A stretch of DNA of 64,000 nucleotides from Luteimonas terricola (GTDB taxonomy: Bacteria; Pseudomonadota; Gammaproteobacteria; Xanthomonadales; Xanthomonadaceae). The notes beneath the pieces are model-generated. The model did no database searches. It saw only the letters and a list, made by a program, of their open reading frames with translations, and was not told the DNA's origin. The translations under genes were made by a program, and so were the position numbers. Location of the stretch: the NCBI RefSeq assembly GCF_004352845.1, contig NZ_SJRX01000008.1, positions 1 to 64,000 of the forward strand, written 5' to 3'. Positions 1 to 38,481 of the stretch are shown one piece after another. Numbering within the stretch: the stretch's first letter is position 1; each line of letters starts with the position of its first letter.

Positions 1-307
1 GCCTTCGCGGCTCATGTCCCCCGGCATCCGCCTGGCGGCGGATGCCTCCTCCTTTACTTCCCCGCGAAGGCCTTCCGGCCACGACGGGGCTCGGCGTTGC
101 TGCGGGTTCGCGGGATACCGGCTTTGCCCTTGGGGGCGCCGCGTACTGCTGCGCACCGGGTGCCAAGGCCCTTGAGAGCGAAGTCAAGGAGGAGGCGATG
201 GCCGCAGGCCAGCGCCGGGGGACATGAGCACTCAAGGGCCTTGGCACCCGGCGCCCGAGAGGATCAATGGCGCGCCATTCCCTCAGTTGGGAGAAGAACC
301 TTCTTTT
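1..307. repeat. Composite nested-palindrome repeat, copy 1
   Basis: This block of about 300 bp reappears as its reverse complement at 37992-38306. It carries two hairpin units in opposite orientation: unit A (1 to about 72, cut by the window start) and unit B (156-251, with perfect 21-bp outer arms at 156-176 and 231-251). A spacer at 73-155 separates them. On the right there is a flank with the palindrome TGGCGCGCCA (268-277) followed by a stretch that matches the second copy up to about 307. Each unit has outer arms, two constant linkers and an inner hairpin. No transposase is present. It ends about 50 bp upstream of the hutU start. Confidence 0.85.
156..251 (+). repeat. Hairpin unit B of composite repeat
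   Basis: The outer arms (156-176 and 231-251) are perfectly complementary over 21 bp. Inside are a constant left linker at 180-196 (containing AAGGAGG), an inner imperfect hairpin at about 195-215, and a constant right linker at 214-228 (ending ACATGAG). The linkers are identical to those of unit D (38239-38255 and 38274-38288), while arm and inner-stem sequences differ but keep pairing. By chance or not, AAGGAGG followed by ATG at 198 would open a nine-residue reading frame here; unit D lacks that ATG. Confidence 0.8.
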
Positions 308-317
308 CGCGCGATGC

Positions 318-355: not shown

Positions 356-2020
<1,665 letters not shown>

Positions 2021-36395: not shown

Positions 36396-38015
36396 ATGCG
36401 CAGACCGACCCTTGCCCTAGCCCTTTCGCTGCTGCTGCTCCCGATCGCCAACGCAACGCATGCCGCGGATGCCGCGCCTCCTGCGCCGCTCACCGGGCTC
36501 GATGCGCAGGTCGAGTCGGTGCGCGAAGCCTTCAAGGTGCCCGGCGTCGCAGTGGCGGTGGTGAAGGATGGCGAGCTGGTGTTCGCCGGCGGCTGGGGCG
36601 AACGCGAGGTCGGCAAGGCCGAAGTCGTCGACGCCGACACGCTGTTCTCGATCGCCTCCATCACCAAGGCCTTCACCTCGGCCTCGCTGTCGATCCTTGC
36701 CGACGAAGGCAAGCTCGACATGGACGATCGCGTGATCGACCACCTGCCCTGGTTCCGCATGGACGACGCCTACGTCACCCGCGAGATGCGCATCCGCGAC
36801 CTGCTGGTGCACCGCAGCGGACTTGGCCTGGGCGCCGGCGACCTGCTGTTCTGGCCGCCGAGCGACTACAGCACGCGCGACGTCGTCGAACGCCTGGCGC
36901 GCGTGCCCATCGCCGGCGGCTTCCGCGACCGCTACGCCTACGACAACGTGCTCTACGCCGTGGCCCAGCTGGTGATCGAAGGCGTTTCAGGCCAGGCCTA
37001 CGCGGATTTCGTGCGCGAGCGCCTGTTCCAGCCGGTGGGCATGGGCGACACCCGCATCGACAGCAACGCACTGCGCCCCACCGACACCAACGTCGCCACC
37101 GGCCACGCGCGCGCCGGCTTCACCGGTGAGCCCGAGCCGGTGCCGGCGATGTCCTGGTCGAACAACACCGCGGCCGGCGGCATCTATTCCAGCGTCAACG
37201 ACATGGCGAAGTGGATGCGCGTGCAGCTGGACGGCGGCGTGCTGGAGGGCGAGGGCGAGGATGCGAAGCGACTGTTCAGCGAGAAGCGGCACGAGGCGAT
37301 GTGGTCGCTGGTGACGCCGATCCCGATCCGCAAGCCGACGGTGCCCGAGCTTGCGGCCACGAAGCCGAACTTCGCCGGCTACGGCGAGGCCTGGAGCCTG
37401 AGCGACTACCGCGGCCGCAGGCTGGTCTGGCACACCGGCGGCTGGCCGGGCATGGTTTCGCGGCTGACGCTGGTGCCCGAACTCGACCTGGGCGTGGTGG
37501 TGCTGACCAACCAGGAAACCGGCGCGGCTTTCAACGCCATCACCATGCACGTGCTCGACGCCTACATGGAGGCGCCGGCCACGGACTGGGTCGCGGCCTA
37601 CGCCGCGGCCATCGCCAAGGGCGGCGACAGGGCGGACGAAGACTGGAAGAAGCACGTCGCGGCGCGGGACGCGCGGTCGAAGCCTGCGCTGCCGCTGAGT
37701 GGCTACGCGGCCACTTACCGCGACCCGTGGTACGGCGATGTGGTGTTGGCCCAGGGCAGCAAGGGCCTGGAGATGCGCTTCGCCCGCACCCCGCAGCTGG
37801 TCGGCGACCTCGAGCACTGGCAGCACGACAGCTTCATCGTGCGCTGGCGCGACCGCACCCTGAACGCCGACGCCTTCGTCGACTTCAGCCTCGATCATGA
37901 CGGCAAGGTGCGTGAGGCCAGGATGGAGGCGGTGTCGCCGCTGACGGACTTCAGCTTCGACTTCCACGACCTGCGGCTGAAGCCGGTAGAGAAAAAAGGT
38001 TCATCTCCCAACTGA
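36396..38015 (+). CDS. Serine hydrolase (class C beta-lactamase/PBP-like fold), exported
   Basis: This 539-residue protein has a signal peptide (TLALALSLLLLPIANATHA), SxxK motif S88-ITK91, a YxN-type motif (AYDNVL, about residue 182), an HTGGWPG motif and a C-terminal domain like DUF3471. Related proteins include estB-type esterases and peptidases of the beta-lactamase fold; substrate unknown. The last residues (KKGSSPN) and the stop codon derive from the composite repeat starting at 37992. The original gene end has thus been replaced or trimmed by the repeat. Confidence 0.85.
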   Translation: MRRPTLALALSLLLLPIANATHAADAAPPAPLTGLDAQVESVREAFKVPGVAVAVVKDGELVFAGGWGEREVGKAEVVDADTLFSIASITKAFTSASLSILADEGKLDMDDRVIDHLPWFRMDDAYVTREMRIRDLLVHRSGLGLGAGDLLFWPPSDYSTRDVVERLARVPIAGGFRDRYAYDNVLYAVAQLVIEGVSGQAYADFVRERLFQPVGMGDTRIDSNALRPTDTNVATGHARAGFTGEPEPVPAMSWSNNTAAGGIYSSVNDMAKWMRVQLDGGVLEGEGEDAKRLFSEKRHEAMWSLVTPIPIRKPTVPELAATKPNFAGYGEAWSLSDYRGRRLVWHTGGWPGMVSRLTLVPELDLGVVVLTNQETGAAFNAITMHVLDAYMEAPATDWVAAYAAAIAKGGDRADEDWKKHVAARDARSKPALPLSGYAATYRDPWYGDVVLAQGSKGLEMRFARTPQLVGDLEHWQHDSFIVRWRDRTLNADAFVDFSLDHDGKVREARMEAVSPLTDFSFDFHDLRLKPVEKKGSSPN

Positions 38016-38306
38016 GGGAATGGCGCGCCATAGCTACAGCGCGGGCGCCGGATGCCAAGGCCCTTGAGTGCTCATGTCCCCCGGCGCTGGCCTGCGGCCA
38101 TCGCCTCCTCCTTGACTTCGCCCTCAAGGGCCTTGGCACCCGGTGCGCAGCAGTACGCGGTGGCCGGGAGCAAAGCCGGGGATCTCGCGCATCTGCGGCC
38201 GAAGCCAAGCCCCGTCGTGGCCGGGAGGCCTTCGCGGGGAAGTCAAGGAGGAGGCATCCGCCGCCAGGCGGATGCCGGGGGACATGAGCCGCGAAGGCCT
38301 CCCGGC
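37992..38306. repeat. Composite nested-palindrome repeat, copy 2 (inverted)
   Basis: This is the reverse complement of 1-307. It has unit C (38048-38143; 20 of 21 arm bases pair), a spacer at 38144-38220 and unit D (38221-38305; perfect 17-base arms at 38221-38237 and 38289-38305). Unit D holds an inner hairpin of ten pairs, 38253-38262 with 38267-38276. Linkers at 38239-38255 and 38274-38288 are identical to those of unit B. It overlaps the 3' end of the serine hydrolase gene. Confidence 0.88.
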
Positions 38307-38413
38307 CGCGGCGGGGCCCTCCAGGTCTCCGCGAGGCGTAGCGAAAGAAGCACACACTCCTCGTCGAACCGGTTCCCCGGAATTCGGAGATGAACCAAAA
38401 AATTAGGCGATAC

Positions 38414-38441
38414 CCTCTTCCCCCGCTTGCGGGGGAAGAGG
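38414..38441. terminator. CCTCTTCCCCCGC hairpin between convergent genes
   Basis: CCTCTTCCCCCGC (38414-38426) pairs with GCGGGGGAAGAGG (38429-38441), a 13-bp stem. It is downstream of both the serine hydrolase and the second DUF885 gene, which converge here. A close relative lies at 52764-52792. Bases 38307-38413 hold no gene. Confidence 0.65.
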
Positions 38442-38481
38442 CCCGAAGGGCAGCTGGCGGCGAGCTTGCGGGAATGTCCCG

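Follow-up and report, generated by a model that had tools for sequence, protein, structure and literature searches.

A scattered, non-coding element occurs in two copies in the window (the whole 64,000-nucleotide stretch of Luteimonas terricola DNA analysed here, which is the start of contig C17 in a genome of 3.04 Mb and 20 contigs). Each copy comprises two divergent nested-hairpin units of ~105 nt, and the window holds four units, rather than the two compared in the preliminary description, A pairing with B and C with D (Table 1). We give about an even chance to the reading that this is a non-autonomous, REPIN-like mobile element that works through its paired hairpins in single-stranded DNA form and is served by an enzyme other than an adjacent RAYT. 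The strand carrying the linkers in sense is selected to fold, whatever the direction of the neighbouring genes; some genomes have the element at an orthologous site where others lack it; and copies in the L. terricola genome lie between terminal repeats with a target duplication signal of ~8 bp.

Table 1. Coordinates of the element copies and their parts in the window
Feature	Position	Strand	Remarks
Element copy 1	1..300	+	own-genome BLAST family; left part lost at contig start
Nested-hairpin unit A	1..89	-	cut by contig end; outer right arm 10/28 nt present
Nested-hairpin unit B	151..256	+	complete, with outer arms, inner joint and inner hairpin; DNA fold z -8.3
Left linker of B	180..196	+	GAAGTCAAGGAGGAGGC; same as 38239-38255
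Right linker of B	214..228	+	GCCGGGGGACATGAG; same as 38274-38288
Right terminal inverted repeat, copy 1	285..300	-	
Element copy 2, complete	37998..38396	-	399 bp, terminal repeat to terminal repeat
Terminal inverted repeat, copy 2	37998..38013	+	GGTTCATCTCCCAACT
Other terminal inverted repeat, copy 2	38381..38396	-	
Nested-hairpin unit C (B type)	38043..38148	-	z -7.3
Nested-hairpin unit D (A type)	38210..38316	+	z -9.3
Left linker of D	38239..38255	+	GAAGTCAAGGAGGAGGC
Right linker of D	38274..38288	+	GCCGGGGGACATGAG
AAAAAA flank of copy 2	37992..37997	.	partner of 38397-38402; target duplication within A tract
AAAAAA flank of copy 2	38397..38402	.	partner of 37992-37997

As first described, the linkers of B and D are identical (17 bases on the left, 15 on the right), and each unit pairs well within itself: when folded as single strands, neither was equalled by any of its 200 shuffles. 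The three complete units (B, C and D) gave z values of -7.3 to -9.3 and their opposite strands -6.4 to -8.4 (-8.4 for B, -8.1 for D), i.e. nearly equal folding of the two strands in the window copies. Another GC-rich palindromic stretch, at 38415-38450, lies just beyond copy 2.

The anatomy of the fold was drawn from 163 relaxed units with full flanks at named loci, reduced to 138 by dropping 25 that shared a 16-nt arm end; since seed units were picked by their exact linkers, this set is fair for the arms, not for linker conservation. In register d=0, 80% of pairs were Watson-Crick, compared with 27-36% in other registers. Counting from the core, pairs 5-27 were Watson-Crick in 94-133 of the 138 units (42-99 by column when shuffled), pair 28 in 94 (shuffled 55), pair 29 in 59 (49) and pair 30 in 36 (38); the outer stem comprises pairs 5-28, and from pair 30 outwards pairing falls to what shuffling gives. 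When 42 units (from 49 whose inner segment is 18 nt long, after removal of 7 near-duplicates) were aligned without gaps, 94.4% of cells paired, as against 68.3% when shuffled and 33-40% with slid partners, so that the non-pairing arms which the preliminary description had named as fatal to a fold were not found. Both sides had changed in 31 of 39 pairs, and covariation was 0.705 (reached by 0/500 shuffles) against 0.188 when shuffled, which is very strong. The proposal that selection acts on a fold containing sequence-specific inner segments is well supported.

Around an inner hairpin, mostly with a GNA loop, the fold has a non-canonical joint that is purine-rich and conserved and, outside this, an outer stem of 24 bp. 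The linkers, previously taken to be unpaired, contain covarying pairs and are only partly so: core position 0 pairs with -1 (CG in 121 units, TA in 8) and position 3 with -4 (AT in 127, GC in 10). An A.G, present in 134 units, becomes G.A in 3. In 131 units, positions -2/-3 form a tandem G.A/A.G with the G and A opposite them; in the other 7 they are C and T and make Watson-Crick pairs, 6 of these with position 4 changed as well. Covariation is also seen at the base of the inner stem (GC 111, AT 7, CG 6), and the invariant part is the AAGGAGGA/GGGG purine joint; beyond the outer stems no strongly conserved column was seen across genomes. A G-quadruplex is not favoured: it was the minimum-energy choice in 23/138 folds, and in the third GG the second G takes part in a covarying stem pair; an intrinsic terminator was rejected for want of a T-rich column past the stem. 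Nor do the AAGGAGG and ACATGAG pointed out in the linkers look like translation signals: within the ATG, the T differs in 10 and the G in 7 of the 138 units, and the frame opened by that ATG has a median of 45 codons, against 42 in the neighbouring frame.

On the linker-sense strand, wobble pairs were strongly unbalanced, with 283 G.T against 39 A.C across positions 4-24 of the outer stem, and 51 against 3 in the inner stem. Mutation alone would give equal numbers, and one strand is therefore selected to fold. Between copies of unit B in the L. terricola genome, 23 one-sided changes led to G.U and 5 to A.C, alongside 6 other mismatches and 5 two-sided Watson-Crick changes. With neighbouring genes called by our own third-position GC rule, co-directional genes flanked 62 of the 138 units, convergent genes 22 and divergent genes 9; a further 15 lay within predicted genes and 30 at edges. 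The G.T:A.C ratio was 68:7 in the 30 units in sense to co-directional genes and 60:11 in the 32 in antisense; given this equal asymmetry, the fold does not serve the neighbour's mRNA.

The apical loop was a triloop in 120/138 units, of GNA type in 101/120 and closed by C-G in 112/120; of 14 tetraloops, 5 were GNNA. Among background perfect hairpins at the same loci, only 7/145 triloops were GNA, and 7 were of the mirror type. GNA and GNNA loops are described in one account of DNA mini-hairpins as exceptionally stable and nuclease-resistant (PMC4686876). Because such loops dominate here, a single-stranded DNA form is favoured, short of proof. The energy parameters used assign no special value to GNA, in DNA or in RNA. 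GNA triloops and sheared G.A pairs occur in RNA also.

A structured non-coding RNA, its units acting either via their own transcript or by stopping or pausing read-through from either side, is the alternative that fares best, although we think it rather unlikely. The sense unit of a divergent pair would always be distal for each direction of read-through, copies between divergent genes are few (9/138), and the wobble excess, the covariation and the swaps of tandem G.A for Watson-Crick pairs are all RNA-like. Set against this are the absence of orientation bias towards neighbours, with equal fold quality in sense and antisense units, the lack of any conserved promoter-like or T-run column outside the stems, and the GNA preference itself. 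In Rfam, moreover, the window had no match, and no unit at L004 and eight other loci matched above the gathering score; a below-cutoff mir-B6 match covers the unit at L022. Known RNAs were also noted at two of the loci: an RNase P RNA adjoins one element copy (L004:1814-2191), and two divergent xanthine riboswitch matches lie in a Hydrogenophaga MAG (L020:1438-1492, minus strand, and 1574-1631, plus strand).

Searching the genome and its relatives with the linker core, as had been suggested, recovered 77 exact cores in L. terricola (reversed control 0), and a longer core pattern 57 exact matches (reversed control 0), far above chance. Of the 126 matches listed by BLAST of window positions 1-310 on the same genome (40 candidate places scored), ~40 are complete or partial element copies in register. 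Several contigs, among them C2, C4, C11, C12, C16 and C17, start inside or beside an element copy; the assembly thus seems to be interrupted by the element, and the copy count may be too low. Two pairs of copies with one common flank (L007/L157 and L005/L166) are segmental or assembly duplicates. Exact cores were present in 4/37 genomes of the genus (77 in L. terricola, 42 in G036, 9 in G003, 1 in G018), and the other 24 genomes of the order gave a single match, in G048, with an inner segment that does not look like a hairpin; this lone match is probably chance.

Further afield, an exact scan of named genomes found at least 110 stretches, most with Burkholderiales titles. Among the matches listed were the Burkholderiales Hydrogenophaga, Rubrivivax, Rhodoferax, Variovorax, Ideonella and Aquabacterium, some Rhodocyclales (Sulfurisoma) and some Xanthomonadaceae (Luteimonas padinae, Pseudoxanthomonas, Lysobacter); four loci with unpaired arms (L037, L074, L092, L120) look like chance matches. 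One Burkholderiales family, that of G205, carried the core in 74/299 genomes and 48/141 genera (controls 0), including coordinates in Albitalea terrae and Hydrogenophaga flava, with high counts in G749 (71), G679 (65) and G714 (16). In a class-wide draw, a covariance model applied under strict filters, scoring 10 candidates in each genome, detected the element in 4/369 genomes, L. terricola counted. One query against plasmids returned 52 records at E up to 1, the four best all holding units; many Pseudosulfitobacter plasmid matches lay inside a relaxase gene and look like chance. One query of a phage collection gave no match, and in 2 stretches from viral contigs a relaxed search found no unit.

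The paired arrangement is general. Neighbouring units less than 250 bp apart were divergent in 56/58 cases; in 46 of these 56 the cores were separated by 90-119 bp. A partner was detected for 119/167 units. Evidence of movement comes from an operon locus in the genus of G749 (Burkholderiales), which was matched in 27/41 genomes: among 20 loci fetched, 12 were empty, 6 filled (the query genome counted) and 2 rearranged or partly deleted. Filled and empty alleles occur at one locus, and the element is therefore mobile. Locus L316 carries an allele of the operon locus with a rearranged element. A Burkholderia anthina plasmid has one unit between two meta-cleavage genes, at a junction that is not clean; an Achromobacter plasmid (93% identity) and three others have no unit at that site. 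In contig C55 of G749, an IS110-family element (PF02371, PF01548; L267:2093-3594) carrying 12-bp subterminal repeats interrupts one unit within its left linker (GCGAAAT^AAAGGAGG); the nested hairpins can thus also serve as an IS target.

The ends of the element differ between lineages. In L. terricola, where 22 rows with both ends were tested (3 probably spurious pairings kept in), the 8-bp duplication signal had an identity of 0.67, compared with 0.34 when shuffled (z 5.9); insertion sites were A/T tracts, some of them, by eye, near terminator-like hairpins. Eight further terminal-repeat sites in this genome (L215-L222) included several element copies, and frames inspected at two of them revealed no recognisable transposase. 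Tandem repeats noticed at the element ends of L203, L205 and L312 were considered and dropped, since they showed no enrichment over control positions. The ends in G749 are TTCAGGGCG-like, with no direct duplication (17 of 19 copies with both ends) and two weakly inverted flanking bases (z 3.1).

How insertions age was followed in 44 L. terricola copies, two duplicate loci being left out. Non-consensus bases were less frequent in the four linkers (0.6-3.9%), the arms (0.4-5.4%) and the inner hairpins (2.9-3.2%) than in the right terminal repeat (9.35%), the right flank (9.7%) and the gap (15.2%). Private changes numbered 2 in the 1425 linker cells of unit B, compared with 25 in 1525 cells of the right flank plus terminal repeat and 14 in 1717 gap cells. 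The right linker of unit A had 2 in 520 and its left linker 12 in 668, not below the flank, so constraint after insertion does not extend to every unit. At one locus shared by six genomes, identity was 91-98% in linkers, 79-92% in arms, 80% in the gap, 56% in the tail and 49% in the inner hairpin of B. The view that linkers are steadier than arms stands between genomes and at this shared locus, but fails for unit A within L. terricola, where linkers (2.5-3.9%) varied about as much as arms (0.4-5.4%).

These data bear on whether the element is an ordinary DDE-type MITE with the hairpins as passive cargo, e.g. bidirectional terminators, an explanation we consider unlikely. Gene-free copies with GGTTCATCTCCCAACT terminal repeats and a duplication of ~8 bp at A/T tracts do make the L. 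terricola family MITE-like. A parent IS was not recognised at the terminal-repeat sites fetched. However, its internal linkers are better conserved than its ends (compare the right terminal repeat above), the G749 copies depart from the MITE pattern in their want of a direct duplication, and outside L. terricola no common ends are seen beyond the stems; passive cargo, furthermore, would be unlikely to keep sequence-exact joints in two orders.

A transposase substrate like a large REPIN, one of the options first put forward, remains the favoured reading, although the hallmark of REPINs, a TnpA-REP gene beside the repeats, was not found at the loci inspected. The profile PF01797 (RAYT, TnpA-REP, Y1_Tnp) had no match in L. 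terricola or G036, rich genomes of the genus. Searches of 61 genomes of the order, 31 carriers and 10 carriers, from which 8, 28 and 10 loci respectively were fetched, placed it in 20/31 and 8/10 carrier genomes, with no match in 11/31 or in G714 and G742. The 46 loci, with ~1.5 kb flanks, showed no convincing unit: 36 of them lacked GGACATGAG and contained only 3 lone GGAGGAGG, and the 42 loose matches across all 46 looked random on inspection. Four composites used as BLAST queries produced a single match, of 26 bp, at L133 (E 0.003). A RAYT mobiliser was rejected on this ground. The clusters of neighbouring frames inspected looked generic by eye, with no transposase recognised among them.

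A classical REP/REPIN moved by a RAYT (Y1) transposase is therefore very improbable, despite the inverted, mostly intergenic dimers, the strand-specific single-stranded fold of imperfect hairpins and the conserved mismatched region of the stem, all of which recall REP, REPIN and BIME sequences. The unit is a nested hairpin of ~105 nt rather than a palindrome of 20-40 bp, no conserved GTAG or CGTC tag stands at the hairpin foot, and the arms vary between copies around a fixed inner joint. Least credible of all are functionless quasi-palindromes, their arms kept paired only by template-switch correction, since this would predict neither the wobble asymmetry nor the linker conservation observed, even though several inner-hairpin pairs do differ together at one locus.

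Other systems offer partial likenesses. Integron attC sites are recognised as a folded single strand with variable arms; in the present element the centre is conserved, the variable arms lie outside, and no cassettes were seen. The TIRs of TIRYT transposases, so far as the description consulted goes, are long, partly double-palindromic repeats in dimers, with a GGGGWSAS motif that matches GGGGACAT of the right linker at 7/8 positions, and flank tyrosine transposase genes, which our units do not at the loci inspected (Di Nocera 2013, PMC3733652). A Burkholderiales-1 motif (Weinberg 2010) is named in a table of PMC2864571 that gives it no Rfam number, and among the papers listed in searches of the open-access literature by core words and topics, none was recognised as describing the element. 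We conclude that it is a widespread element with REPIN-like logic and an anatomy of its own; the Burkholderiales-1 motif and the RNA option bear on its novelty.

In the favoured, non-autonomous REPIN-like reading, the working parts would be the two ~105-nt nested hairpins, divergent and about 100 bp apart, acting as single-stranded DNA exposed, for example, on the lagging strand. By analogy, the enzyme may read the invariant joint as TnpA-REP reads the mismatched bulge of the E. coli REP, and both hairpins of a pair may be needed, as in REPINs; it would act in trans and would not be an adjacent RAYT. TnpA-REP is described as binding REP as single-stranded DNA, strand-specifically, through bulge and loop (PMC8266576). 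Several points weigh against this reading: no transposase is tied to the element; the L. terricola ends resemble those of a DDE-type MITE, which needs no single-stranded hairpin, while the ends in the genus of G749 differ and show no direct duplication; GNA triloops and sheared G.A pairs are not confined to DNA; the opposite strands of the window copies fold nearly as well; and private changes are not reduced in the left linker of unit A. More tentatively, the element may represent a mobile-DNA class that is new: pairs of folded single-stranded motifs, each having an invariant non-canonical joint set in freely drifting stems, would be read by a non-RAYT enzyme, and the pair, not tied to any one vector, would have been carried by different ends in Xanthomonadaceae and Burkholderiales.

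To our knowledge, DNA or RNA structures proven by one-strand compensatory change in a mobile repeat are uncommon. More than 100 differing stems around a fixed joint make a recognised motif readable from sequence alone; the fixed joint points to a binding partner common to two bacterial orders, and raises the question of what keeps old copies intact after insertion.
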